Under the pieces are notes generated by a model, which worked only from the letters and a program-made list of their open reading frames with translations, was not told where the DNA came from and did not search any database. This document shows positions 8,520-47,465 of a DNA stretch of 64,000 nt, in pieces. This stretch comes from Desulfolithobacter dissulfuricans (GTDB lineage: Bacteria; Desulfobacterota; Desulfobulbia; Desulfobulbales; Desulfobulbaceae), in the NCBI RefSeq assembly GCF_025998535.1, contig NZ_AP024233.1, forward strand, positions 1,835,219 through 1,899,218, in the 5' to 3' direction. A program made the position numbers and the translations under genes. Each line of letters begins with the position of its first letter. Within the stretch, counting starts at the first letter, position 1.

Positions 8520-9850
8520 GGCTCTTCGTCATTTCATGTGGATTTCAGCAGGTTCTGTAACGGAGCAGCGAGAAGGTAGATGATGGTAATGAATGTCTCA
8601 TCGTTTCGGTATCCACGAGCCCGCACCTTGGCGGCCTGGAATATTCCGTTGAGGGCCTCTATGCGTCCATTGCTATGTTCTGATATCCATCTGGCAAGAA
8701 TCTCCTCCCGGTACTTTTCCACTGTGCGCAGCGCCTTTCTGACCGGAGCCAACAGTTTTTTGTCATCGCAAAGCTCATTGGCCAGATTCAAAAACCAGGT
8801 CAGCCGCCATCTGGCCGCCCGCAGATTCGTTGCTCGGCGAACCCAGCGCAGTAGCTCTTTGATGCGCCAGGCTTCGGCTGTGTGCAGGTCCATGGCCTCA
8901 AGCTCTGCCAGCGCATCAAGCTGCTTTTCCGTGAGGTCGCTTTCCGCTGCCTTGAGAGTAGCCCATCTCGCAGCCCGGGGCATGCGTACTTCCTTTGCTT
9001 CCTTGCGGCGCACCTCGTCCACTGCCTTGCTGAACAGCTGGACCACATGGAACCAGTCCACCGTAATATTGCTGTTGACGAAGTGGGTCTTTATGCCGGA
9101 GATGAAGGCTCCGGACATGTCAGAGACCACCTCGACCACATTCTCCGCCTTTCCCTGGTGGTCGGCCAGAAACCGCTTGAATGCCTTCAGTGTCTTTTTG
9201 CCCTTGCCGGGAGTGGCAAAGACTACCGGTTTTTCCTTGCGGTCCAAGTCGATGAACACGGTGATGTAACGATGACCGCGACGGGATTTGGTTTCATCCA
9301 GGCTGAAGGCTTTCAGGCCGCTCAAGTCCATCCGGGCCAGGGCCTGGTTGACATAGTGACGGATGATCCGCCACAACCGCTTGTCTTTCATCTCCAGAAT
9401 CCGAGCGGCGGTGAGTACCGGCATATCACGGACAAATACCATGGCCGCCTGCTCGAAAAGCAGGGTAAACTTGCTGCCTTTGCGAGCCCAGGGAACGGTA
9501 ATCTGTTTCACGCCATGGTGTTCACAACGAATCCTGGGGACAGGGGCGGTGATGTAACAGTGATGTTGGAAAAAATTCAGATGCCGCCATGTCTTCACCT
9601 TGAAATCATGAGCCTTGCACATGGCTCCACAGACAGGGCAAGGATACTTCGCCCCTCGGTCGGCCTTGATGGTAAGGCGCAGTTCATGGGGAACCTTCTC
9701 CGTGTCCAGAATCTGTCCCTTGATTTCCCAGGGGGCTTCCAGGCCAAGTCCAAGACTGATAACGTCACGACTGTTCATCCTGACACCTCCGACGTTTCGA
9801 GTGGATTTGGTCACAAAATATACCAAATCCACTCAAAACGTCGAGGAGCC
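8520..9850 (-). mobile_element. ISL3-family insertion sequence, copy 1 (1331 bp)
   Basis: The ends are imperfect inverted repeats, GGCTCCTCGACGTTTTGAGT at 9850 and GGCTCTTCGTCATTTCATGT at 8520, which converge on GTGGATTT. An exact 8-bp target duplication ATTCTTTT flanks it (8512-8519 and 9851-9858), the size expected for ISL3. Between the 9850 end and the transposase start lies a long hairpin (about 9790-9843). A second copy of the same 1331-bp length, with an identical transposase, lies at 46135-47465. Confidence 0.95.
8534..9778 (-). CDS. tnp: ISL3-family transposase (copy 1)
   Basis: 414 residues from the ATG at 9778, chosen because CGGAGGTGTC lies just upstream; an in-frame upstream codon would read through the end hairpin. 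The N-terminus has an ISL3 zinc-finger region (YPCPVCGAMCKAHD, then RIRCEHHGVKQ). The DDE core shows FSLDETKSRRGH, VVSDMSGAFISGIK and the late Glu in SNGRIEALNGIFQAAK. It catalyses cut-and-paste or replicative movement of the element. It is identical in protein sequence to the copy at 46207. Confidence 0.95.
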   Translation of the reverse strand: MNSRDVISLGLGLEAPWEIKGQILDTEKVPHELRLTIKADRGAKYPCPVCGAMCKAHDFKVKTWRHLNFFQHHCYITAPVPRIRCEHHGVKQITVPWARKGSKFTLLFEQAAMVFVRDMPVLTAARILEMKDKRLWRIIRHYVNQALARMDLSGLKAFSLDETKSRRGHRYITVFIDLDRKEKPVVFATPGKGKKTLKAFKRFLADHQGKAENVVEVVSDMSGAFISGIKTHFVNSNITVDWFHVVQLFSKAVDEVRRKEAKEVRMPRAARWATLKAAESDLTEKQLDALAELEAMDLHTAEAWRIKELLRWVRRATNLRAARWRLTWFLNLANELCDDKKLLAPVRKALRTVEKYREEILARWISEHSNGRIEALNGIFQAAKVRARGYRNDETFITIIYLLAAPLQNLLKST

Positions 9851-10387
9851 ATTCTTTTCTCAGTTTTCAGACTCCAAAGAATTCCTGGAATGGGTTGACC
9901 ATTTTTATAAAGACAAGAAATCACTAGCAGCCCTGCCAATGATATTGGAAGCAGAAATTTATGGTATAGGTTTTCCTTTGGCTTGTGATTTTCTTAAAGA
10001 GCTTGGCTATATTAATTACGGAAAGCCTGATGTTCATATTATCGAAATTTTTGAGGCAATTGGCCTGGTTGAAAAAGGAGCAAGCAACTATCAAATATTA
10101 AAAGCAATTACAAGAATTGCAAAAAATATAAATGTAAGCGTATACAATGTTGACAAATTGTTCTGGCTTATTGGAAGTGGTTATTTTTACAATCATATTC
10201 AAGCAGGTAATAAAGGAAAGGTAGGTAGAATGAAGGAAGCATTTATTGAGTATATGAATTCAAAAAATGCATAATCGGATAACCAAGTGTTTTTCTGCCA
10301 AAACCCTCACAACACCCTGCGTGACAGCTCCGCCCAAGGCAGTTCTCATTACCTGGAATTCATAGTTAGCAACGAGCAACAATAATT

Positions 10388-14736: not shown

Positions 14737-14888
14737 TACTCAACCTGGAGCGCGCCAACGACTTTCCCGTTCCGCTCACTGGTCTTGATGGCAAAAACAC
14801 CTTTGCCACCAGGGTTCTGCAGCTTGTACTCGAAAACCGCTGTCCGCTTGCCGTAGCCGTTTTCCGTCACCGTGAATCTCTTCTCCAT
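14725..14888 (-). pseudogene. Truncated unknown gene, N-terminal part
   Basis: It starts at 14888 ([20 protein letters not shown]), overlapping the end of the preceding gene by 22 bases, which suggests a two-gene operon. Homologous-looking sequence ends near 14725 where the IS remnant begins, so only about 54 residues of the original protein remain. I do not recognise the family. Confidence 0.5.
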
Positions 14889-15796
14889 TTTTCCTCTAAT
14901 AACTCTTGTTCTTTCTTTAATTTTTCAAACCAATCAATCGGTGGGGGTTTTGGATATGGTAAGTCATATTCCTTCATTAGTTGTTGCATCCACTCCTCAT
15001 GAATGCCTAAATATATATTACTAAAATATTTAACAACCATCTCATGTACTCCTTTATACTTCACGAGGTGGCTTAGTCTTTTAAAGTTTTTGTTCAATTT
15101 TGATAGCTGCAGATTAACCCATATATTTATGTATTTTTTATTACCTGTCTCTTTGATGCAATTTTCAACTGTTGGAATCAATATGTTTCCATTAAATAGA
15201 ATTTCTACAACATTGTTTTTAGTAGTGCTAATTTCAAATGTCGAAACAATAATAGTTTGATTGTGGAGTATTTTAATATGACATATATTTTCATATAGCT
15301 TTTTTGGTGTGCCATAATTTTTTTTCAAGTAAAAAACTTGTTGTTTCTCATTGCTTAATATCGTACCGGTAACTTTTGAAAAATTGTTTTGTAATTCTTC
15401 TATCATTTCTATTTGAAACGGTTGCCATGAACATAGCATCCAAGATTTATATTGTGATATATTTTTTTTAATTGTTGTAATATCAATATTATTGGTGCAA
15501 AGGTGCTTAGGCCACGGAGGGCCTAAAGAGTCAAAGTATACTTTACCGCCGTACCGCGATTCATAATAAAAAACTGAATTTCCACATACAGGACAAGTTG
15601 CATTTGGATTAACAAAGGATGAATAACTATAATCATAGAATTTAGCTTTAATGGTATTAAAAGAATGTGTAGTTTTATCTATTGATGAGCATGTGAAAGT
15701 CCCCCTATCATCTCTGTTAACGCCGTGTTTTCGAACCCAAAAAGTTGTCCCATTGCTGTTTGTTCTCCAATGCCCTCTCCTTCTAAAGAATGTCAC
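14867..15796 (-). CDS. Unknown protein with an internal zinc-ribbon motif
   Basis: 309 residues. After a basic N-terminus ([20 protein letters not shown]) comes a zinc-binding module [13 protein letters not shown] with a partner PWPKHLC about 20 residues later (residues 68-100); this pair with a [11 protein letters not shown] linker recurs in uncharacterised bacterial proteins. The C-terminal half is AT-rich, Lys/Asn-rich and ends in a charged helix. There are no membrane segments. Very low GC against its surroundings suggests recent acquisition. Function is unknown. Confidence 0.68.
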
Positions 15797-16037: not shown

Positions 16038-16634
16038 TCACCGAATGTCAAGTCTCCCTTCTGCAATGCCAGCATAAGCCCCGACACCACGGCGCGCGTC
16101 GTAAATGGTCTGCCGACTGACTTCGTATTCCCTGGCCAGGGCTGCAGCACTATCCTTCCGCTGTCGAATTTCTCTTATCTGGTCGATGGTGAGCCGGCGC
16201 GGACGCCCCAGGTGCTTGCCCCGCTTTTTCGCAGCAAGGATGCCCTCCCGCTGCCTTTCACGGATGATTGCCCGCTCAAACTCGGCCACGGCTCCGATGA
16301 TCTGAAGCTGAAGTTTTTGAAACGGGTTGTCGTCTCCGGTAAAGGTCAGCCCCTCCTTGTGAAAACGAATACCGACACCTTTAGCCAGAAGCTTCTCGAT
16401 GATCCGTTGCAGGTCGAGCAAGTTGCGGGCCAAACGGTCGATGCTGTGAACATGCAGTACATCTCCCTGGCGAAGGTAAGACATACATTCTTGCAATTGG
16501 GGCCGGTCAGCACTGCTGCCGGACGCCTTTTCCTCAAACACCCGGTCGAAGGTCATCCCGGCAAGTTGCCGGGCTGTCTCTTGGTCGGTACTGCTCACCC
16601 TGATATAAGCTACATTTTGACCGTTCACGATCAT
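16038..16634 (-). CDS. Serine recombinase (Tn3-type resolvase / invertase)
   Basis: 198 residues from the ATG at 16634; a TTG three codons earlier is an alternative. The catalytic N-terminal domain starts NVAYIRVSSTDQETARQL, with the nucleophile Ser in RVSS, and contains VHSIDRLARNLLDLQ (the LxRLxR-type motif) and AEFERAIIRERQREG. The C-terminus is a helix-turn-helix DNA-binding domain (AAALAREYEVSRQTIYDAR). It resolves cointegrates or multimers by recombination at a res site, and a candidate site lies directly upstream. Its placement beside ParA fits a plasmid multimer-resolution role. Confidence 0.93.
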   Translation of the reverse strand: MIVNGQNVAYIRVSSTDQETARQLAGMTFDRVFEEKASGSSADRPQLQECMSYLRQGDVLHVHSIDRLARNLLDLQRIIEKLLAKGVGIRFHKEGLTFTGDDNPFQKLQLQIIGAVAEFERAIIRERQREGILAAKKRGKHLGRPRRLTIDQIREIRQRKDSAAALAREYEVSRQTIYDARRGVGAYAGIAEGRLDIR

Positions 16635-16669
16635 TCTCTCCAAAATATGTCAAAAAACGTCTTAACTTT

Positions 16670-16957: not shown

Positions 16958-17275
16958 TCATCCACGCCGCTTTCCTCCTCCAGTCAGTTCGGCGATTTCC
17001 TTTTCAATCTCAGGGATGATTCGCTCGATGATAAACGAGTTCATGCTGTATGGAGAGTTGTCGGCAATGAACTTGAGTTTCAGATAAAGCGGTTCCGGCA
17101 GCCTGATCGGCAAATTTTTCATTACATCATCTCGCACCTGTGGCTCTTCCCAGGGATAAACAGTATCCGTTTCACTTCTGGGCTTACCGGCAGCCGCAGC
17201 AAAGGCATCGAGATCCGTCTTTTTTTTCTTTGCCGGAGCTGAACGAAGCGTGGTCTTCTTTTTATTTGCCACCAT
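16958..17275 (-). CDS. Small ParA partner, ribbon-helix-helix-like DNA-binding protein
   Basis: 105 residues starting at the ATG at 17275, inside the last codons of parA, so the two are translationally coupled. The N-terminus is Lys-rich (MVANKKKTTLRSAPAKKKKT). The C-terminal half (NLPIRLPEPLYLKLKFIADN, then SPYSMNSFIIERIIPEIEKE) has the strand-helix-helix pattern of CopG/Arc-type regulators, where the strand NLPIRLPE would read DNA. In ParA systems of this type the small second protein binds the centromere and represses the operon. Confidence 0.75.
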   Translation of the reverse strand: MVANKKKTTLRSAPAKKKKTDLDAFAAAAGKPRSETDTVYPWEEPQVRDDVMKNLPIRLPEPLYLKLKFIADNSPYSMNSFIIERIIPEIEKEIAELTGGGKRRG

Positions 17276-17915
17276 ATACCTCTTCAAATAACTGAGTTAT
17301 TTCTTGAACCGCCTTTTTATCCTGTTTCCACTCAACAACGGATAAACCGCCCCGGGCCGATTTGCGAAAAGCGATACGGTCACGGAGAAACGAGTCTGCC
17401 ATGGACAGGTACTGATAATCTTCTTCTTCAAAAAAATTTTGAGCTTCCTGATCCTCATGGACAGCGGGATTGGTGGACACCCGGTTCAGGACAATAAAAG
17501 CCTGCAGGTTTTCATTGAAACTCTGAGCCATTTCCACAAGCTCATCCATTTGCTGGATTGTCCAGATGTCAAACTGAAACGGTTGAACAGGAATGTAAAC
17601 CCGGTCACAGACACCAAGGGAATAGCGCAGCTCCATGGAATCCCGACCACCGGCATCTATAATGATTTCATCATATCGTCCTGCCAGGTCTCGGATCTGG
17701 GCCGCCAAACCCTTGCCGAATTTCTGTACACAGGAAATTCGGGGTTCAACCTCTGTCTCCTCACGGACAGCAGCCCAGAAAGAGGCTGTTCCCTGCCGGT
17801 CTGTATCCAGCAGCAATACGTCTTTTCCCTGGAGAGCCAACATGGCTGCCATATTGGTGGCCAGCGTGGTCTTGCCGGTGCCGCCTTTTTCACCTCCGAA
17901 CAATACAACGCTCAT
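17262..17915 (-). CDS. parA: ParA-family partitioning ATPase
   Basis: 217 residues. The deviant Walker A motif GGEKGGTGKTTLATN is at residues 7-21, then LLLDTDRQGTASFWAA (Walker A' with the catalytic Asp) and DEIIIDAGGRDS (Walker B). It lacks the N-terminal helix-turn-helix of larger ParA proteins, so it belongs to the small type Ib-like group. A good ribosome-binding site (AAAAGGAGCG) precedes the ATG. It drives segregation of the element with its small partner. A palindromic site 30-45 bases upstream is a likely operator. Confidence 0.93.
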   Translation of the reverse strand: MSVVLFGGEKGGTGKTTLATNMAAMLALQGKDVLLLDTDRQGTASFWAAVREETEVEPRISCVQKFGKGLAAQIRDLAGRYDEIIIDAGGRDSMELRYSLGVCDRVYIPVQPFQFDIWTIQQMDELVEMAQSFNENLQAFIVLNRVSTNPAVHEDQEAQNFFEEEDYQYLSMADSFLRDRIAFRKSARGGLSVVEWKQDKKAVQEITQLFEEVYGGK

Positions 17916-17997: not shown

Positions 17998-19020
17998 TCA
18001 CTTTACCGGTTTAATTACTGTGGGCAGATCCCTATCATCTGATACCCCAACAGGCACTGGCGGTATCCATTTTAAAACCCGGTTCACCCGGCCTTTGCCA
18101 ACCAGATAGGTATGCCAATGGGCACGGCGCACATGCGGACGTTTTTTGGCCCCTGATCCAGTACCGGCAGAATTTGATTTGTCGCCTGCCTGTTCTGCAC
18201 GCCGCAAAGCGCTGCCGATCCGCACTCCCACATCCCATATTCTGGGAGCCGTGGCCGGGAACACTTTCATCCCTCTCCGTGTTTTAACAGGTTTAGGGTT
18301 GCCAGGAACACCTTGTCCTGAAATTTCAGCATTTGTGCTGCACAGGTACAGGAGCAAAGATATCAACGGCTCGATGCTGGAATTTATCTGTTGCGGCACG
18401 TCTTCCGGTATCGCTTCAAGAAGATTTGAATTGTTTTGCGCTGCATATTCCCGGGCTGTCTGCATAGCCGAGGACACGGCATCCTCCAGGGTGCTGTTCT
18501 CCAGCAGATGCAACGGGATGCCAATCAGGTGGTCCCAGCTGGCTGAACCCAGGTCAAGCAGCAGGCGCAGTTCCGCACGATGCATATTGACATCGTACTC
18601 AAGGTGAGCAAAAAAACCGGCCAGTTTCTCCCCGCTCCATAGAAAACCAGGCGTTTCGATATAAACACACCATTCCGGCAACTGAAAAAGAACCTCGACA
18701 GGCAATTTGCCCGAAACAGGTGTCTCCAGCAGACTGGCGTATAGTGCAGGATCGAACCTGTACACACTCCTGGTCATACGCCATGCGGAAAGAGCGGACA
18801 GGCGGGCTACATCTCCAATTGTACCCACTGAGGACCTGTTGTTACGCCTACCGGACACGACAGCGTATGCGGCGGCCATTGGACAATAACACCAGTCCGG
18901 CCAGTCCGGTAAACCATTCCGGCCTTTGCTCTGGTGGAACTCGGCAAACGATTTCCAGCCTCCTGGAAATCGTTTTTCGGCCTCACGCAAACAATTTTGC
19001 ATCACGCTGACGGTACTCAT
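17998..19020 (-). CDS. acrVA2-like: AcrVA2-like anti-CRISPR protein
   Basis: 340 residues from the ATG at 19020 (an in-frame GTG at 19056 is possible). It matches my memory of the AcrVA2 family at several conserved places: a Trp-rich N-terminus with a CPMAAAYAVVSG segment, FQLPEWCVYIETPGF near residue 125, FFAHLEYDVNMHRAELRLLL, KTRRGMKVFPATAPRIWDVG with RIGSALRRAE, and the C-terminal RPHVRRAHWHTYLVGKG followed by KWIPPVPV. AcrVA2 proteins block type V-A CRISPR by acting on Cas12a expression. It lies between a WGR gene and parA on the same strand, a setting typical of plasmid anti-defence genes. Family assignment is by motif memory only. Confidence 0.8.
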   Translation of the reverse strand: MSTVSVMQNCLREAEKRFPGGWKSFAEFHQSKGRNGLPDWPDWCYCPMAAAYAVVSGRRNNRSSVGTIGDVARLSALSAWRMTRSVYRFDPALYASLLETPVSGKLPVEVLFQLPEWCVYIETPGFLWSGEKLAGFFAHLEYDVNMHRAELRLLLDLGSASWDHLIGIPLHLLENSTLEDAVSSAMQTAREYAAQNNSNLLEAIPEDVPQQINSSIEPLISLLLYLCSTNAEISGQGVPGNPKPVKTRRGMKVFPATAPRIWDVGVRIGSALRRAEQAGDKSNSAGTGSGAKKRPHVRRAHWHTYLVGKGRVNRVLKWIPPVPVGVSDDRDLPTVIKPVK

Positions 19021-19240
19021 GCTTGAGTCGTTTTTTAACCACCCGGTTGTAGTCACCGAACATATCTGATTTGCTCAGATATCGTTTTTTCATGCCGGGG
19101 TGTCCCCTGCTTCCAATCCGTCCCCACTTACGGATCAATACATAGCTGAATAGATCACGCCCGGCGACCACATAGTAAAAAGCTTTCCGGTTTTTCTCGG
19201 GAATGACGCATTCAAAATATGCTTGCTCAAGAAAAATCAT
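18983..19240 (-). CDS. Small WGR-domain protein
   Basis: 85 residues from the ATG at 19240 (MIFLEQAYFECVIPEKNRKA). The core RDLFSYVLIRKWGRIGSRG holds the Trp-Gly-Arg signature; WGR domains bind nucleic acid ends and are often found in small plasmid proteins. The C-terminus is a basic helix (SDMFGDYNRVVKKRLKHEYR). Its end overlaps the start of the AcrVA2-like gene by about 38 bases, so the two are probably expressed together. Confidence 0.85.
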   Translation of the reverse strand: MIFLEQAYFECVIPEKNRKAFYYVVAGRDLFSYVLIRKWGRIGSRGHPGMKKRYLSKSDMFGDYNRVVKKRLKHEYRQRDAKLFA

Positions 19241-19283
19241 GATCCATCCTTCCAAACTTGCGTACTTCTTTGCCCCTTTCCTT

Positions 19284-19305
19284 ATGATATCATATCATAT
19301 CATAT
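19284..19305. promoter_or_regulatory. ATATCAT repeats upstream of the WGR/anti-CRISPR genes
   Basis: Overlapping copies of ATATCAT / ATGATAT (ATGATATCATATCATATCAT) lie 45-65 bases before the WGR start. They resemble the palindrome at 17945 before parA. The site could be an operator of the ParA partner or of another repressor. Confidence 0.4.
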
Positions 19306-19325
19306 TGCAAACTGTTGAGCAAATA

Positions 19326-19412
19326 AAAAAGCCATATCCGCCCCCTTGAAAGGCAGATATGGCTTAAAACACAACCTGATAGAATTACAGGAAAATTCTT
19401 CCCTCCCCATTC
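19326..19412. repeat. Direct repeat 1 flanking higBA: copy of the VWA gene's 3' end and terminator
   Basis: It matches 20048-20137 at most positions. It contains the terminator hairpin (AGCCATATCCGCC, CCCTTGAAA, GGCAGATATGGCT), the spacer AACCTGATAGAATTACA, and a degraded copy of the last codons of the VWA-metallopeptidase gene (minus-strand reading I-P-E-W-G). The higA stop codon lies just beyond it at 19422. Confidence 0.8.
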
Positions 19413-19421
19413 CGGGATGGG

Positions 19422-19727
19422 TCAAGAAGAACAGGGTACTTTTCGACTTTTGAGGGGCTTTATTCGAGGACGTTTGTTTTTTTGGGCCTGCCATAAGTCG
19501 CAGGCGTCCTGCATACGCAGCCAGACCTCGGGACTTGTACCGAGCCACTGAGCAAGACGCAGGGCCATATCAACGGAAACACCGCTTTTGCCATTCAACA
19601 ACCTTGACAGGGTAACGCGGGAAATGCCAAGTTGCCGGGCAGCCTCGGTCACACTGATGCCCTCGGCTTCCAAGACATCTTCTTTAATGATCTCCCCAGG
19701 ATGGGGAGGGTTATACATTGCACTCAT
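19422..19727 (-). CDS. higA: HigA-type antitoxin
   Basis: 101 residues from the ATG at 19727 ([20 protein letters not shown]); an upstream in-frame ATG would overlap higB further. The helix-turn-helix reads [20 protein letters not shown] with LNGKSGVS after it, and the PPHPGE start is diagnostic of HigA/VapI antitoxins. It neutralises HigB and represses the operon. The toxin gene lies first, as usual for higBA. The last residues (KSRKVPCSS) run into the repeated segment that duplicates the VWA gene end. Confidence 0.93.
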
Positions 19728-19737
19728 ATCATGCCTC

Positions 19738-20016
19738 TTAGTGGTAATCAAGGTAATCGACCAACTCTACATCATCACCAACAAAACGAAAAATGACACG
19801 CCAGTTGCCATTAACCCATATCGAAAAAAAACCTTTTTGTTTGCCAGTCAAGGGATGCAACCTGTATCCGGGCAGGTTGACATCTTCAACTTTTGTTGCC
19901 ACATCCAGCAAACCAAGTATCCTTCTCAACTTCGCGGCGTGTTTGGCCTGAATACCGGCTTTACTTCCTGTTTTGTAAAACTTTTCCAGTCCTTTGTGTC
20001 GGAAGCTTATAATCAT
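19738..20016 (-). CDS. higB: HigB-type mRNA interferase toxin
   Basis: 92 residues, RelE/ParE fold. Visible features are [40 protein letters not shown], the [20 protein letters not shown] segment and [22 protein letters not shown], the standard ending of HigB. It cleaves mRNA on the ribosome when free of HigA. The ATG follows AATAAGGC. The pair sits between the two direct repeats described at 19326 and 20048. Confidence 0.94.
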
Positions 20017-20047: not shown

Positions 20048-20137
20048 CAACAAAAAAAGCCATATCCGCCCCCCTTGAAAGGCAGATATGGCTTGAAAGG
20101 TAACCTGATAGAATTACATCGAAATCGCTTCCCCCCA
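20048..20137. repeat. Direct repeat 2: genuine 3' end and terminator of the VWA gene
   Basis: It contains the last codons of the VWA gene (E-W-G-E-A-I-S-M-stop on the minus strand), the spacer AACCTGATAGAATTACA and the terminator hairpin (AGCCATATCCGCC, CCCCTTGAAA, GGCAGATATGGCT with a T-run on the minus strand). The copy at 19326 lies on the other side of higBA. Confidence 0.82.
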
Positions 20138-21295
20138 CTCCGGTATTTTCCAGTGATTGTGCTGCGGATATACCCATAGCACAGGATAATCCGGCTCAGG
20201 AGGATAGCGGTCACAGTAAAGATCAGTCAGATACACCAGGCAAACCGGTGTAACCTGATTGTCCTCAACCCATTGGAAAGGCGGCCTGAAATCAGTTCCA
20301 CCCCCACCAAATGGCTTGAGCTTCAACGGCAGGTCATCCTGGGAAAAACTTTCCACCGCGTTAATATTGTAATCGCAATAGATCACATGCACAGTGGTGT
20401 TGTATTCCTCAAGGATGGCACTGATTTCGGACCCGAACTGATTCAGATCGTCCTGGCTGATGGAACCCGAAGTGTCCACTGCCACGACGACATCTCCCAG
20501 CTCCCTGGAATAGAGAGAAGGGGTATAAAATCCGCGGGCCAGATAGTTCCGGTTGGGCCGGAGCCAGGAATAGTCATTCCGGGCCGCCGTCTCAAGGAAA
20601 TTGCGAAGAACGTCTGCCCAGTTGACTTTCGGCTCCAGCATTTCCTTGACCAGCCGTTCCATTCCACCAGGAACCTTTCCCATGGCTTTCGCCTGGGTCA
20701 ATGCCTGGTTCATAGCTGTCTTCCATTCTCGCTCGGATTGGGCTATTTCTGACGGAGTAGCTGGCCGGCCATCGCTCCCTGGGCAATCGCGTACTTCACC
20801 GCATCCTCCGGGGTCCGTGCCATTGGATTGGCCGGGGCCTGATCCAGATTGACCAGGCTGGTCGGGCTGATCCGGTTGTGGTTCAGATTGGCCAGAGCCA
20901 TCGGAATCCTGTGGCAACAAATTATAGATTCTTTCCGCGCTGTAGCCAGCCCAGGAAGAATCATGCAATGCGCCATCCGGCAGGACGAATCCAGCTTCAA
21001 GCAGCGGCGCATTGACTGCGTAATCACAGGCGATGTTCCAGCGGTCCTTGTTTCGCTGTTGCCGACGGGCATGATGGCCCAAGGCACAGTGCATAACCTC
21101 ATGTGCCAGTATGCCTTTCACCTCGTCAAAAGAGAGGCCGGCAATAAACTCCGGGTTGTACCCCAGAGTTTTGCCGTTCACCCAAGCTGTATCACAGCTT
21201 GGGTCCTCAACCAGCTTCAGCCTCAGCGCCAGGCTGCCAAAGAACGGTTGGCTCAGGACAAGGCTTGTAAGAGCTTTTTTAATTTTTGCTGCCAT
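20114..21295 (-). CDS. DUF2201-type protein: metallopeptidase-like plus VWA-like domains
   Basis: 393 residues. The N-terminal domain has the zinc-protease motif ILAHEVMHCALGHH (HExxH near residue 64). A Gly/Pro/Gln/Ser-rich linker covers about residues 135-180. The C-terminal domain resembles von Willebrand factor A, with a MIDAS motif VVVAVDTSGSIS near residue 265 and YLTDLYCD later. It is the third member of a MoxR ATPase / DUF3150 / VWA set, in which the ATPase and VWA protein usually act as a chaperone pair on an unknown target. The start overlaps the preceding gene by 17 bases. Confidence 0.85.
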   Translation of the reverse strand: MAAKIKKALTSLVLSQPFFGSLALRLKLVEDPSCDTAWVNGKTLGYNPEFIAGLSFDEVKGILAHEVMHCALGHHARRQQRNKDRWNIACDYAVNAPLLEAGFVLPDGALHDSSWAGYSAERIYNLLPQDSDGSGQSEPQPDQPDQPGQSGSGPGQSNGTDPGGCGEVRDCPGSDGRPATPSEIAQSEREWKTAMNQALTQAKAMGKVPGGMERLVKEMLEPKVNWADVLRNFLETAARNDYSWLRPNRNYLARGFYTPSLYSRELGDVVVAVDTSGSISQDDLNQFGSEISAILEEYNTTVHVIYCDYNINAVESFSQDDLPLKLKPFGGGGTDFRPPFQWVEDNQVTPVCLVYLTDLYCDRYPPEPDYPVLWVYPQHNHWKIPEWGEAISM

Positions 21296-27512: not shown

Positions 27513-27911
27513 TTAAAAGGGAATATCGTCAACACTAGGCATAGGCGGCTCCATGGGATCGCTCTGGGGCGGGGAATCCGTATTCTCCTGCCTGCTGCCG
27601 AGCATTTCCATCTCGGTGGCAATAATTTCCGTCACATAACGGGGATTGCCACTCTTGTCTTCCCATTTCCTGGTCTGAATAGCTCCTCCAATGTAAACAT
27701 GAGAGCCTTTAGCAAGATATTCACCGCAGATTTCTGCCAACCGTCGCCAGGCCACGATTCGGTGCCATTCAGCTTTCTCCTGCTTTTTACCATCCTTGTC
27801 TCGCCAACGTGTTGTCGTGGCAAGGCTGAAGATGGCGACAGGAATTCCGTCCTGGGTATAGCGGATTTCAGGATCATTTCCGAGGTGACCGATCAACATA
27901 GCTTTATTCAT
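27513..27911 (-). CDS. ssb: Single-stranded DNA-binding protein
   Basis: 132 residues from the ATG at 27911 (MNKAMLIGHLGNDPEIRYTQ), with AAAGGAGAAA upstream; the longer frame reads through the leader. The OB fold shows FSLATTTRWRDKDGK, AEWHRIVAWRRLAEICGEYL and GSHVYIGGAIQTRKWEDKSG. The acidic tail ends MPSVDDIPF, the signature that recruits partner proteins to SSB. Plasmid ssb genes protect incoming single-stranded DNA and prevent SOS induction during conjugation. Neighbouring recombination genes support this role. Confidence 0.95.
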   Translation of the reverse strand: MNKAMLIGHLGNDPEIRYTQDGIPVAIFSLATTTRWRDKDGKKQEKAEWHRIVAWRRLAEICGEYLAKGSHVYIGGAIQTRKWEDKSGNPRYVTEIIATEMEMLGSRQENTDSPPQSDPMEPPMPSVDDIPF

Positions 27912-27930
27912 TTTTTTCTCCTTTAAAATC

Positions 27931-27990
27931 AAGGGGGCGCAAACCCGTCCCCACCGTGGGGAAAAATTCACTCCCCCATTTTTTGGTGGG
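27931..27990 (-). promoter_or_regulatory. Dual-hairpin leader f, before ssb
   Basis: Minus strand: CCCACC with GGTGGG enclosing GGGGA with TCCCC, competing with GGGGGAGTGAAT paired to GTTTGCGCCCCC (G-U pairs and one mismatch). It lies about 20 bases before the ssb start. Confidence 0.6.
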
Positions 27991-28008: not shown

Positions 28009-28974
28009 TCAGACGACTTTCTTCATTTCCAAAAACGAATAGGGCCTGTTCACCTTGAATTCATCAGGGGAACAACCATTTTCGCTTAGGAAAGCTTCCA
28101 GCCGGTCCATATTGAAGACCTTCCTGTTTCGGGAGACTTCCCGAAGGAAGCATCCCCCTGCTTTAATCGGGCCTCGCTTCGATACGATGGTGAGGAGGCC
28201 CTTCTTATGATATTCAATCTCTTTGGCAAGCTCCTTCTGTCTGGCTTGCAATTCGTCCAGAATCCCTACCAGTTCCGCCAGCTCAGGAACCTCTTCGGCC
28301 TCGAACCTGGGGCAGGTGGAGATATAATTGCAGAAGCCACACAGAGGGCTTGGCTCCGTAGCTAGCTCGATGTCTTCCTCTCTCTTCATCCCCTGGTAAT
28401 CAGACCAGAGCTTTCTGGCCCGATCCATCAGACCGCTGAAGATATTTTCATCCGGGGTATAGCCATTGAAAAATGCCACCTCGCCATAGGCCAGGTTCAG
28501 GCATAAAATAGCCCCCTTATCAACGGTGTAATCGGGATATTTTTTGGCCAACAAGCCCATTTGGAGGTAAAGCTGTTCCTCCCAGGAGCTATATGGAGTG
28601 TCCGGGGTTTTTCCTGGGCTCTTTACCTCTAAAACCGAGAGGGTTTTCTTGGCTTTGGAGAAGAATACGAAATCAAGGTGGGCCTTGATCGGAACATCAC
28701 CGTCATAGACAACTTCCACCTGCCGCTTGAAGTTGGTATAACCAGCGGCAGTGAAAGCATCCGCAACGATGTCTTCCGTCAAGTGCCCTCGTTGGAAATG
28801 GAGAAGAGTCGCCAGGTCGTGATCGACCGGCGATATTTTAGATAGGATTGTCTTTCTCGGGCAGGAACCGATGTCGGACGCGCCGAGATATGAACTACGA
28901 TCTCCTAAAGTTTCTTCAGTGTGTTGCTGTGCCAGCTTACGTAGGCTGGTCAGCAAGGTGTTCCTTATATCCAT
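28009..28974 (-). CDS. Cas4/RecB-type PD-(D/E)XK nuclease
   Basis: 321 residues from the ATG at 28974 (MDIRNTLLTSLRKLAQQHTE) with AAAGGAGG upstream. SYLGASDIGSCPRKTI supplies the first Cys. The nuclease core is KAHLDFVFF and LSVLEVKSPGKTPD (D...ExK), with QLYLQMGLLA as the QhxxY-like helix. LCGFCNYISTCPRF supplies three more Cys, completing a Cas4/AddB-like iron-sulphur cluster site. A helical region follows (LDELQARQKELAKEIEYHKK). It is likely an exonuclease that processes DNA ends alongside the Rad52-like protein. No cas1/cas2 is nearby, so a CRISPR adaptation role is unlikely. Confidence 0.85.
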   Translation of the reverse strand: MDIRNTLLTSLRKLAQQHTEETLGDRSSYLGASDIGSCPRKTILSKISPVDHDLATLLHFQRGHLTEDIVADAFTAAGYTNFKRQVEVVYDGDVPIKAHLDFVFFSKAKKTLSVLEVKSPGKTPDTPYSSWEEQLYLQMGLLAKKYPDYTVDKGAILCLNLAYGEVAFFNGYTPDENIFSGLMDRARKLWSDYQGMKREEDIELATEPSPLCGFCNYISTCPRFEAEEVPELAELVGILDELQARQKELAKEIEYHKKGLLTIVSKRGPIKAGGCFLREVSRNRKVFNMDRLEAFLSENGCSPDEFKVNRPYSFLEMKKVV

Positions 28975-28995
28975 CCATATATCCTCCTTTACAAA

Positions 28996-29050
28996 CGAGG
29001 GAGGATACACGGATTCCCGCCGAGGGAATGGGTATCACTCCCTCATTGGG
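28996..29050 (-). promoter_or_regulatory. Dual-hairpin leader g, before the Cas4-like gene
   Basis: Minus strand: CCC with GGG enclosing GAGGGA with TCCCTC, competing with GAGGGAGTGATAC paired to GTATCCTCCCTC (one bulge). AAAGGAGG follows. Confidence 0.6.
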
Positions 29051-29480: not shown

Positions 29481-30143
29481 TCAATTAGCAGGAATAGCCC
29501 AAACTTTTTCTGCTTTATCCCAACGGAATCCAGCAGATTTGAGCAGTTCTCTTTTCGAATATACAGCTTTCCCTGTGGCGTAAATGGTGCCATTGGGAAG
29601 CTTCCTGTAGGAAATTCCATCAATCTTGGGGAGCTGTATATCGGAAGAACGATTCTGAGATGGCGGCGTAGGTTGCCTGGCAGGTTGCTTGTCAGGAGAA
29701 GGCTGCCGCTGGCCATTGCGGCCAAGGTAAACCTCTTTCAGCAGTCCTTTGTAGGCATCGCTGCCGATTGATAAGAGGGACATGCACTTCTGGATACCAT
29801 CGGTAATTGCCCCTTTCATGGCATCACCGACGTTCCCCCGGACGATCTGCATCTGTCCGGCCTGCACGCCCTTACACAACCATTCGCCATCGACTCGGAC
29901 AAAGAGTTTCACATCGACAACCGCCTGGTTGTCAAATATCTCTTTGCTTACAACCTCATACCTCCAGTTTTCAGGTCCGATAATGGCGTTGACCGCATCA
30001 AAAACATATTGCGGTTTATAGCCGTAACGGACCTGGCCGATGACCTGGCCGTTTTTTCCGACCATTTTGATTTCCTGCACGGCCTCACGGCCAAAAGACC
30101 TGAGCTGTGCGTTGATCGCTTCGACCTGTTTCGTGATGGACAT
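29481..30143 (-). CDS. Rad52-like single-strand annealing protein
   Basis: 220 residues from the ATG at 30143 (MSITKQVEAINAQLRSFGRE) with GAGGAGG upstream. The core is typical of Rad52/22-type annealing proteins: GYKPQYVFDAVNAIIGPENW, AVVDVKLFVRVDGEWLCKGV and GDAMKGAITDGIQKCMSLLS with IGSDAYKGL. A Pro/Gln-rich linker follows, and the C-terminus (RKLPNGTIYATGKAVYSKRE) ends in a small separate domain. It would anneal complementary single strands and work with SSB and the Cas4-like nuclease. It is the first gene of the minus-strand cluster. Confidence 0.85.
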   Translation of the reverse strand: MSITKQVEAINAQLRSFGREAVQEIKMVGKNGQVIGQVRYGYKPQYVFDAVNAIIGPENWRYEVVSKEIFDNQAVVDVKLFVRVDGEWLCKGVQAGQMQIVRGNVGDAMKGAITDGIQKCMSLLSIGSDAYKGLLKEVYLGRNGQRQPSPDKQPARQPTPPSQNRSSDIQLPKIDGISYRKLPNGTIYATGKAVYSKRELLKSAGFRWDKAEKVWAIPAN

Positions 30144-30165
30144 AGTTATTTCCTCCTCGTGATTA

Positions 30166-30228
30166 CACGGGAGAGAAACACTATGCCCCATCGGGAGCGA
30201 CAAAGTTTCACTCCCGTGGATATGGGGT
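30166..30228 (-). promoter_or_regulatory. Dual-hairpin leader i, before the Rad52-like gene
   Basis: Minus strand: CCCCAT with ATGGGG enclosing CGGGAG with CTCCCG, competing with ACGGGAGTGAAAC paired to GTTTCTCTCCCGT (one mismatch). GAGGAGG follows. Confidence 0.65.
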
Positions 30229-31530: not shown

Positions 31531-31975
31531 AGTATCCGCAGGGGCTATCGCAGCAACCGCTTTTCTCATGCTGTCATCCTTGTTCTCAGCCTCCATGTTT
31601 GCCGTTGGCTGTCTACTTGGATCGCTGGCCCCGGATTGGCTGGAGGTTGCCTGGTTCAGCAAATGGTTTGGCCGGCAATCGCTGGTTCCGCACAGGACTA
31701 TTACGCATTGGCCTTGGCCGTGGATCATGGCCCTGGCCGCCCTATTCTTTGCTCCTGTGGACGGTCCGGGGTTTTGGCTTGTGGCCGGTTTCCTTGCAGG
31801 TGGACTGCTTCATCTTGTTTTGGACCTGGCGACTCCAGCAGGGATTCCCTTGGGGAAACCTTTTGGAAAAAAACAGAGCTTTTCGCTGTACCGGACGGGC
31901 GGGCCAGGGGAAATTATCGTTTCGGTGGCTTTGTGGGGGCTACCTGCAATCATTTTGCTGGTCAGGATTTTTTAA
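31511..31975 (+). CDS. YdjM-like inner-membrane metal-dependent hydrolase family protein
   Basis: 154 residues from the ATG at 31511 (MSRFGHKVSAGAIAATAFLM). It has about four hydrophobic segments and the family motif HRTITHWPWPW, plus LLHLVLDLATPAGIPL with conserved His/Asp. Homologues are often found directly before TraD in conjugative elements. The start lies inside the end of the preceding gene and the stop shares a base with the TraD start (TAATG), so expression is tightly coupled. Confidence 0.75.
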   Translation: MSRFGHKVSAGAIAATAFLMLSSLFSASMFAVGCLLGSLAPDWLEVAWFSKWFGRQSLVPHRTITHWPWPWIMALAALFFAPVDGPGFWLVAGFLAGGLLHLVLDLATPAGIPLGKPFGKKQSFSLYRTGGPGEIIVSVALWGLPAIILLVRIF

Positions 31976-33330
31976 TGTTTTTTCGCAGAAAACAAAAGGA
32001 GCCCTGGACTCATATAGGAACGGGCATCCATCTGGACGAACCGAAAAAAATTATTCCACTGGGATACCCGGACAGTTACCGGAAGGGACATTTCTGGTGT
32101 TTTGGCACCACCAGGGTCGGTAAAACACGGGTCATGGAAAACATCATCGAGCAGGATATCAGAAAAGGTTACTCGGTGGTGGCCATTGATCCAAAAGGGG
32201 ATATTGATCTCTTTTCAAAAATTACCCAAATCGCCGATGATACAAACAGACTGAATGATCTGATCCTGATTACCCCGATTTTTCCCCAATACAGCGCCAT
32301 TCTCGATCCATTGTCCTCGTACTACATGCCCGAGGAACTGGTTGCCCATATTACCGCCGGTGTAGCCATCGGCAATGAACCATATTTTTTCGGTGTCGCC
32401 TACGAAGTCAGTCTGGTTGTGGTTCAGGCCCTCCTTATGCTGGCAGAACAGGCTGGCGTAACACCATCTTTCAATCTCAATGACGTTAAAAATCATATCG
32501 GTCGGGCTGCCTTGGAAACCCTGAAGGAAAAAATTGACTATCTCGATCATCCGGAGGCAGAGCAGTTGGCAAAAGATATGCAAAAAATTCTTGCCACTCC
32601 ACCGGACTATTACTCCAAGGTGGCAAGCTCGCTCCGGGTTGCGCTCACGGAGCTGACATCCGGCAATGTTGGCCGGATCATCGGCAAGGCTGACGAAAAC
32701 CGTTTCATCAAACGCCTCGAGGAAGGCAAGGGAGTGATCCTGGTGGTGCAGCTCGGGTCACTGCTTACCAAACGGGCAGCATATACCGCCGGAAAAGTAA
32801 TCATTTCCATGCTTCAGGCTTTCGTGGGCCGCAGGTTTTCCAGCGGCAAGAACGTGAACCCTCCCCTAGTGCTGCATATCGACGAGGCTCAGTCCGTCCT
32901 CTATCGGGGTATCGAGGACCTGTTTGCAAAGGCCGGAGGAGCCGGGGTCTTCATACACGGGTACTGCCAGTCCATCAGCCAGTTATTCGCCGAGGTCGGA
33001 GAGGATCACGCCAACACAATTCTGGACAACTGTAACACCAAGCTGTTCATGCGGGTTCCAGACGCCCATACAGCCAACTATGTATCGGAGCATCTGGGCG
33101 AACAGCGCAGGTTCAGCCCCATTATTTCCCTGGGCGGCGGCCTGTCGATCAGGGAAAGCGAGGAAGTCAGAGTCAAGCACACCGAGGTGCTGAATATGGC
33201 ACCGAGGGAGCTGTTCCTGACAACCTATTCCGGTATCTACAAAGGGATCTCCGCCGATGTTGCCGACTCCACTATCCGGGTCGTTTTTCCGGATGTCAAA
33301 GACGGCAAAATTGTTGAGGAGGTGACCTGA
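31975..33330 (+). CDS. traD: TraD-type conjugative coupling ATPase
   Basis: 451 residues. Walker A CFGTTRVGKTRVMEN is near residue 40, with VVAIDPKGDIDLFSK after it. Walker B is PPLVLHIDEAQSVLY near residue 300, and a later FIHGYCQSISQLFAEVG segment carries the Q motif of VirD4/TraD ATPases. No N-terminal membrane helices are present, so membrane anchoring may come from the preceding YdjM-like protein or the HD protein after it. It would couple the relaxosome to the secretion channel. The end overlaps the next start (TGATG). Confidence 0.9.
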   Translation: MFFRRKQKEPWTHIGTGIHLDEPKKIIPLGYPDSYRKGHFWCFGTTRVGKTRVMENIIEQDIRKGYSVVAIDPKGDIDLFSKITQIADDTNRLNDLILITPIFPQYSAILDPLSSYYMPEELVAHITAGVAIGNEPYFFGVAYEVSLVVVQALLMLAEQAGVTPSFNLNDVKNHIGRAALETLKEKIDYLDHPEAEQLAKDMQKILATPPDYYSKVASSLRVALTELTSGNVGRIIGKADENRFIKRLEEGKGVILVVQLGSLLTKRAAYTAGKVIISMLQAFVGRRFSSGKNVNPPLVLHIDEAQSVLYRGIEDLFAKAGGAGVFIHGYCQSISQLFAEVGEDHANTILDNCNTKLFMRVPDAHTANYVSEHLGEQRRFSPIISLGGGLSIRESEEVRVKHTEVLNMAPRELFLTTYSGIYKGISADVADSTIRVVFPDVKDGKIVEEVT

Positions 33331-45683: not shown

Positions 45684-46134
45684 TGATTATCTTCTATGTG
45701 TTATCGAGGTAGGACTGCCGGTTACCCAGCAGCCCCCTCGCAGATCCCTGCGTGCGGTTTTCCCGCACAGAGCTCTTCGATATTGCTCGCTTCGTACAGA
45801 AGCATTGATATGCTTCCTTTGCTATTCCCCGCAGTGAGGTTTGCTTGCAGTGTCCAGCCCTTCATGTCCGGTACAAGTTCCCTTTGCAGGCTACGCAATA
45901 CCGTCATCCCCTTCCCCATGTGATCGGCCCTACCGTCTCAGAGTACTATGAGATGATCTGACTCTCTGCCACCCATCAGACGTTCTCCTTGTGGTTGATA
46001 CGTCCTACCTCTGCGGTAAAGCTCGATGCAGAGGAGGTGACAGGGCCTCCCAGGTTCCTGACGCTTCTCTCATTACATGCCACGCTCTCGGACCCCGGCA
46101 GTCCCTCGGGAATCTTACCAAAACGATTCCTTTT

Positions 46135-47465
46135 GGCTCCTCGACGTTTTGAGTGGATTTGGTATATTTTGTGACCAAATCCACTCGAAACGTCGGAGGT
46201 GTCAGGATGAACAGTCGTGACGTTATCAGTCTTGGACTTGGCCTGGAAGCCCCCTGGGAAATCAAGGGACAGATTCTGGACACGGAGAAGGTTCCCCATG
46301 AACTGCGCCTTACCATCAAGGCCGACCGAGGGGCGAAGTATCCTTGCCCTGTCTGTGGAGCCATGTGCAAGGCTCATGATTTCAAGGTGAAGACATGGCG
46401 GCATCTGAATTTTTTCCAACATCACTGTTACATCACCGCCCCTGTCCCCAGGATTCGTTGTGAACACCATGGCGTGAAACAGATTACCGTTCCCTGGGCT
46501 CGCAAAGGCAGCAAGTTTACCCTGCTTTTCGAGCAGGCGGCCATGGTATTTGTCCGTGATATGCCGGTACTCACCGCCGCTCGGATTCTGGAGATGAAAG
46601 ACAAGCGGTTGTGGCGGATCATCCGTCACTATGTCAACCAGGCCCTGGCCCGGATGGACTTGAGCGGCCTGAAAGCCTTCAGCCTGGATGAAACCAAATC
46701 CCGTCGCGGTCATCGTTACATCACCGTGTTCATCGACTTGGACCGCAAGGAAAAACCGGTAGTCTTTGCCACTCCCGGCAAGGGCAAAAAGACACTGAAG
46801 GCATTCAAGCGGTTTCTGGCCGACCACCAGGGAAAGGCGGAGAATGTGGTCGAGGTGGTCTCTGACATGTCCGGAGCCTTCATCTCCGGCATAAAGACCC
46901 ACTTCGTCAACAGCAATATTACGGTGGACTGGTTCCATGTGGTCCAGCTGTTCAGCAAGGCAGTGGACGAGGTGCGCCGCAAGGAAGCAAAGGAAGTACG
47001 CATGCCCCGGGCTGCGAGATGGGCTACTCTCAAGGCAGCGGAAAGCGACCTCACGGAAAAGCAGCTTGATGCGCTGGCAGAGCTTGAGGCCATGGACCTG
47101 CACACAGCCGAAGCCTGGCGCATCAAAGAGCTACTGCGCTGGGTTCGCCGAGCAACGAATCTGCGGGCGGCCAGATGGCGGCTGACCTGGTTTTTGAATC
47201 TGGCCAATGAGCTTTGCGATGACAAAAAACTGTTGGCTCCGGTCAGAAAGGCGCTGCGCACAGTGGAAAAGTACCGGGAGGAGATTCTTGCCAGATGGAT
47301 ATCAGAACATAGCAATGGACGCATAGAGGCCCTCAACGGAATATTCCAGGCCGCCAAGGTGCGGGCTCGTGGATACCGAAACGATGAGACATTCATTACC
47401 ATCATCTACCTTCTCGCTGCTCCGTTACAGAACCTGCTGAAATCCACATGAAATGACGAAGAGCC
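46135..47465 (+). mobile_element. ISL3-family insertion sequence, copy 2 (1331 bp)
   Basis: Same ends and length as the element at 8520-9850, in the opposite orientation. The flanking 8 bases are TTCCTTTT (46127-46134) and TTCCTTTG (47466-47473), a target duplication with one change. It sits inside the ORF-less group II intron. The identical protein sequences suggest recent movement between the two places. Confidence 0.95.
46207..47451 (+). CDS. tnp: ISL3-family transposase (copy 2)
   Basis: 414 residues from the ATG at 46207 (MNSRDVISLGLGLEAPWEIK) after CGGAGGTGTC. Its sequence is identical to the transposase at 8534, with the same zinc-finger region and DDE residues. The hairpin between the left end and the start codon (about 46142-46195) is also identical. 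Confidence 0.95.
   Translation: MNSRDVISLGLGLEAPWEIKGQILDTEKVPHELRLTIKADRGAKYPCPVCGAMCKAHDFKVKTWRHLNFFQHHCYITAPVPRIRCEHHGVKQITVPWARKGSKFTLLFEQAAMVFVRDMPVLTAARILEMKDKRLWRIIRHYVNQALARMDLSGLKAFSLDETKSRRGHRYITVFIDLDRKEKPVVFATPGKGKKTLKAFKRFLADHQGKAENVVEVVSDMSGAFISGIKTHFVNSNITVDWFHVVQLFSKAVDEVRRKEAKEVRMPRAARWATLKAAESDLTEKQLDALAELEAMDLHTAEAWRIKELLRWVRRATNLRAARWRLTWFLNLANELCDDKKLLAPVRKALRTVEKYREEILARWISEHSNGRIEALNGIFQAAKVRARGYRNDETFITIIYLLAAPLQNLLKST

Follow-up and report, generated by a model that had tools for sequence, protein, structure and literature searches.

A FinQ/AcrVA2-family gene in a plasmid-type maintenance region integrated in the chromosome of Desulfolithobacter dissulfuricans

FinQ has been known since the 1980s as a protein that shuts down the transfer genes of the F plasmid. 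One review reports that FinQ terminates transcription of the tra operon at multiple sites and independently of Rho (PMC8744291). Its reference plasmid is R621a (PMC5696584). The Moraxella protein AcrVA2 is described, in another review, as recognising the nascent N-terminus of Cas12a (LSKT) and triggering decay of the mRNA during translation through a nuclease that is unknown (PMC13131331). Sequence comparison indicates that AcrVA2 and FinQ are homologous members of one family, with FinQ of R621a matching AcrVA2 independently (E 2.5e-11). No paper naming both proteins was found in the literature searched, although others may already have drawn the connection. Here, a further member of this family is described from a 64,000-nucleotide stretch (the window) of the Desulfolithobacter dissulfuricans genome.

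The gene occupies positions 17998..19020 of the minus strand, running from an ATG at 19020 to a stop at 17998, and encodes an intact protein of 340 aa; a GTG at 19056 provides an alternative start. It is present in single copy and lies on the 3.6-Mb chromosome, which is assembled as one contig. The two sequence blocks by which the original prediction recognised this open reading frame are both found in it. The first, LPEWCVYIETPGF, spans 18643..18681 (minus strand, residues 114-126), with P115 invariant and Y120 nearly invariant among 17 diverse relatives (alignment A1). The second, RPHVRRAHWH, is encoded at 18112..18141 (minus strand, residues 294-303), and in A1 its H296, R298 and R299 are invariant and H301 and H303 nearly so. 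An AlphaFold2 model (mean pLDDT 91.2, pTM 0.89), for which 84 related sequences served as input, predicts strands at residues 296-298 and 301-307 of this region. The RPHVRRAHWH strand, with its conserved H and R residues, is a candidate effector or RNA-contact strand.

AcrVA2 (7ci1) is the sole significant PDB match of the 340-aa protein (phmmer, E 1.8e-18), through two stretches that cover both blocks. The resemblance extends to the whole length of the fold: the model superposes on AcrVA2 7ci2/7ci1 over 285 residues (VIA-align; Z 24.6, rmsd 3.7, 22% identity), and Foldseek returns an E-value of 2.9e-18 for the same pair. In searches of the PDB with both programs AcrVA2 alone is convincing, the missing of other folds being uninformative. 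Homology and predicted structure thus bear out the description of the protein as AcrVA2-like. Among profile libraries, PHROG 6160 matches the protein (E 5e-55) and has no function assigned there; no model in Pfam, NCBIfam or PADLOC matches it or names the family. The protein shares all family-invariant residues with AcrVA2, but the identity between the two is only about 20-22%.

Kinship with FinQ is also apparent. FinQ of R621a aligns with the window protein over 255 residues at 29% identity (blastp, E 7e-26), and a finQ annotation is found on hundreds of Enterobacteriaceae plasmids among the family matches. Twelve residues are common to the window protein, FinQ and AcrVA2 in A1 (W80, Y87, P107, P115, G135, L224, G265, H296, R298, R299, G308 and W318), and these, together with V324, are shared by its 17 diverse members. 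The selection of A1 did not depend on the C-terminal motif. Conservation of that motif in alignment A2, which has 84 rows, arises partly by construction, because the scans that collected the sequences searched for it, and the claim of motif conservation is therefore based on A1 only. FinQ of the IncI1 plasmids (R621a, R820a and others) carries the same conserved C-terminal block, RPHIRRGHWHTYW.G, and is plasmid-borne, as are relatives of the window protein; it differs in that its gene adjoins the IncI1 transfer genes (trbA). One IncI1 finQ (L006:45396-46475) is annotated as 260 aa in a frame that stays open to about 360 aa, and other IncI1 plasmids give a one-piece match for residues 111-359 only, which raises the possibility that some of them carry a broken or misannotated finQ.

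Trees were built from 141 and from 45 proteins. In both, the AcrVA2 group and FinQ each sit on a long branch of their own, of about 2.1-2.7 changes per site, and it is in this respect too that both differ from the window protein. The AcrVA2 group includes proteins of Moraxella phage Mcat4 (1.9e-125 to 7ci1) and Shewanella phage Y11. The window protein is found in the core of the trees, among relatives from plasmids, prophages and chromosomes, and its best match there has about 50% identity. In AU tests sisterhood was rejected neither with AcrVA2 (p 0.28) nor with FinQ (p 0.53). In these trees the protein shows no special tie to AcrVA2 or to FinQ and appears to be as far from the one as from the other. 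Its nearest kin, at about 40-51% identity, are PHROG 6160 and relatives on plasmids and prophages (Methylobacter, Thioflavicoccus and Polaromonas plasmids, IMG/VR contigs), but the gene neighbours differ in each lineage examined.

The family is distributed over mobile elements. In tblastn searches relatives occur on 75 phage records and on 781 plasmid records. Of the plasmids, 617 are conjugative, and the plasmid counts are weighted heavily by near-identical IncI1 and Acinetobacter plasmids. Geoalkalibacter pGSUB1, a Thermodesulfobacteriota plasmid, is among the carriers. Within the class of the host the family is present in 5 of 258 genomes, which fits an accessory mobile gene. This distribution bears on the proposal that the protein is a fertility inhibitor proper, which either represses transfer genes on a conjugative element in the same cell, in the way FinQ acts on F, or tunes transfer of its own element. 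Most plasmid relatives do reside on conjugative plasmids, the protein is homologous to FinQ, and the region also encodes, at a distance of about 13 kb, a TraG/TraD-type coupling protein (31636..33330, plus strand; Pfam TraG-D_C, E 5.9e-17). Many other relatives, however, are carried by phages, which have less to gain from fertility inhibition, and the protein is no closer to FinQ than to AcrVA2, leaving this an unlikely explanation.

No conserved partner gene emerged when neighbours within 6 kb were clustered at 152 dereplicated loci. Only integrases, ParA and resolvases form clusters, at scattered positions, and the upstream genes that overlap family members differ between lineages. The lack of a conserved partner suits a stand-alone effector. 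Individual loci show varied settings. On Thioflavicoccus mobilis pTHIMO01 (L012:931-6984), an overlapping run of pglZ, brxL, a small ORF and the family gene places the last of these as an appendage to a BREX defence operon, and the small ORF ahead of it recurs at two further loci (L042 and L046). In Lactobacillus phage JCL1032 (L019:3968-4879), the family member has the lysis genes on one side and attP on the other, a position typical of lysogenic conversion.

In the window, the family gene is preceded by a single-domain WGR gene (18983..19255, minus strand; Pfam WGR, E 1.8e-9), which overlaps its start by 38 nt. An intrinsic-terminator-like hairpin at 19329..19365 (minus strand) separates the pair from the higBA genes, and promoter-like sites of the extended -10 type lie ahead of the pair at 19284..19318 (minus strand; consensus scan only). 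Because of the overlap, and since both genes follow the hairpin and the promoter-like sites, they probably form one transcription unit, co-transcribed and translationally coupled. The overlap from which a joint action of the two proteins had been suggested is real, but the pairing itself recurs at 0 of 151 other dereplicated loci: in a phmmer search of the fetched flanks, only the WGR gene of the window was found, and the suggested joint action is not supported. An annotated WGR gene lies about 4.4 kb from the family gene in Thioflavicoccus.

The next gene downstream encodes a ParA partition ATPase (17262..17915, minus strand; NF041546, E 4.3e-48, below the cut-off of that model), with a promoter-like site of its own at 17977-17948. 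It is followed by a small ribbon-helix-helix protein of Arc/HicB-like type, a probable ParB-type partner (16958..17287, minus strand; weak Pfam Arc match, E 0.004), and by a serine resolvase (16038..16643, minus strand; Pfam Resolvase, E 5.5e-38). Upstream, the minus-strand cluster begins with an annealing-protein-like ORF (29481-30203) and continues with a RecE/Cas4-like nuclease (28009-29010), an SSB-like ORF (27513-27971, read by eye), a group II intron reverse transcriptase (read by eye), RadC (E 4.8e-43), a MoxR-like AAA protein, DUF3150, DUF2201/VWA and higBA, before reaching WGR, the family gene, ParA, the ribbon-helix-helix protein and the resolvase. Most of the same-strand neighbours named in the original prediction (WGR, ParA, RadC and an SSB-like protein) are in place. 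For the ORF called Rad52-like, at 29481-30203, the PHROG matches are weak and of Erf/annealing type (E about 2e-4). The higBA toxin-antitoxin pair (19422-20016) is flanked by repeats of 85% identity at 19325-19418 and 20053-20146, each with a strong intrinsic terminator hairpin, and resembles a small cassette. A mini-motif (RRGHWR...) apparently shared with the ORF at 14867-15796 was discarded after a profile of the C-terminal block gave no match.

Two ISL3-family insertion sequences, at 8520-9851 and 46134-47465, are inverted and 100% identical. A composite transposon formed by the two copies was considered and rejected, as each has its own short flank repeat, indicating separate insertions. 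No relaxase or T4SS was recognised in the 64-kb window; the TraG/TraD gene is present and the region is chromosomal. The whole is a maintenance region of plasmid type, integrated in the chromosome and interrupted by insertion sequences. Its segment belongs to a 3.6-Mb single-contig chromosome, so "plasmid" can mean plasmid-derived only. An IS-rich chromosomal stretch with a group II intron and ISL3 copies is a setting in which the gene might be a decayed or chance relative that has no function in its present host. Against this, its frame is intact, every family-invariant residue is kept, and its start, operon and neighbours are undamaged, which makes such a relic highly improbable.

The gene had been proposed to encode a type V-A CRISPR inhibitor carried by a plasmid. 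In profile searches Cas12a has no match in the genome of the host, a further difference from AcrVA2, and none in 50 other genomes carrying relatives. The search works, because the same model detects Cas12a in 2 of 150 genomes of Lachnospiraceae; a first control of the model was silent, and the positive control comes from this later search. With FinQ in the same family and AcrVA2 no nearer than FinQ, the proposal is not supported. A working anti-CRISPR against Cas12a could still be retained if the element at times enters hosts with type V-A systems, as fold and family are held in common with AcrVA2 and a mobile element could pass through other hosts. This is improbable in view of the missing Cas12a matches beside a positive control and the separate long branch that AcrVA2 forms with its Moraxella and Shewanella kin. 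Furthermore, the family is carried by IncI1 plasmids of E. coli, a host group that is not known to have V-A systems. Nothing ties the window gene to type V-A CRISPR, and "anti-CRISPR" is too strong a name for it.

The host does have a type I-C locus that looks complete (Cas8c, E 9e-161; Cas7, E 8e-119; Cas5, E 5e-53), with an array of 41 spacers. The protein might accordingly inhibit this system, or another defence of the host, by silencing cas or defence mRNA. Yet 0 of the 41 host spacers match the window, so that no self-targeting calls for an inhibitor. Relatives of the protein also occur in unrelated hosts among which no common system is seen, and the N-termini of the host Cas proteins present no clear LSKT-like peptide, only Cas5 beginning with MSRS. 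An action on the resident type I-C system or on another defence of this host is quite improbable on these grounds. The array itself (L186:4816-7500) contains a duplicated spacer block, in which spacers 6/21, 7/22 and 8/25 are identical.

The reading favoured here, with modest confidence, is that the window gene belongs to a broad mobile-element family of target-specific gene-expression silencers, in which AcrVA2 and FinQ are the two characterised members. In this integrated plasmid-like element the protein most likely acts on a gene that belongs to a rival plasmid or phage, or on some host defence that is not type V-A CRISPR. AcrVA2 and FinQ are homologous and each removes one specific transcript, so one mechanism best explains both; co-translational recognition followed by mRNA loss may then be extended to the window protein. 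In this model, extrapolated from AcrVA2, the protein would recognise the N-terminal peptide of a single target protein while that peptide is emerging from the ribosome. This recognition would lead to loss of the mRNA of that target, and where the target is polycistronic, as in the tra operon, the loss would resemble premature transcription termination. Against a single silencing mechanism stand the published descriptions, which give transcription termination for FinQ and mRNA decay for AcrVA2. LSKT-like peptides occur at the N-termini of F Tra proteins at chance level (1 seen against 0.62 expected, P 0.47), and thus lend no support to a recognition motif common to AcrVA2 and FinQ. With structural identity to AcrVA2 at 20-22%, the window protein may also have diverged in mechanism.

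A wider proposal can be advanced tentatively, as one that may well prove wrong. AcrVA2 and FinQ would be two specialised branches of a single old, mobile family of mRNA silencers guided by nascent chains, which plasmids and phages direct against many rival or host proteins, and the "Rho-independent termination" by FinQ would be the same co-translational destruction of mRNA. The window protein would represent an uncharacterised core member of that family.

The window gene is one among hundreds of relatives, and the weight of the finding lies in the homology of AcrVA2 and FinQ. It merges two puzzles, the machinery by which AcrVA2 destroys mRNA and the shortening of tra transcripts at multiple sites by FinQ, into one question that is testable in E. 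coli. For annotation, labelling members of the family "anti-CRISPR" is unsafe, and the window gene is best filed as a core member of the FinQ/AcrVA2 family of mobile-element expression silencers. More broadly, the homology suggests that targeted mRNA silencing is widespread in the conflicts of mobile elements.
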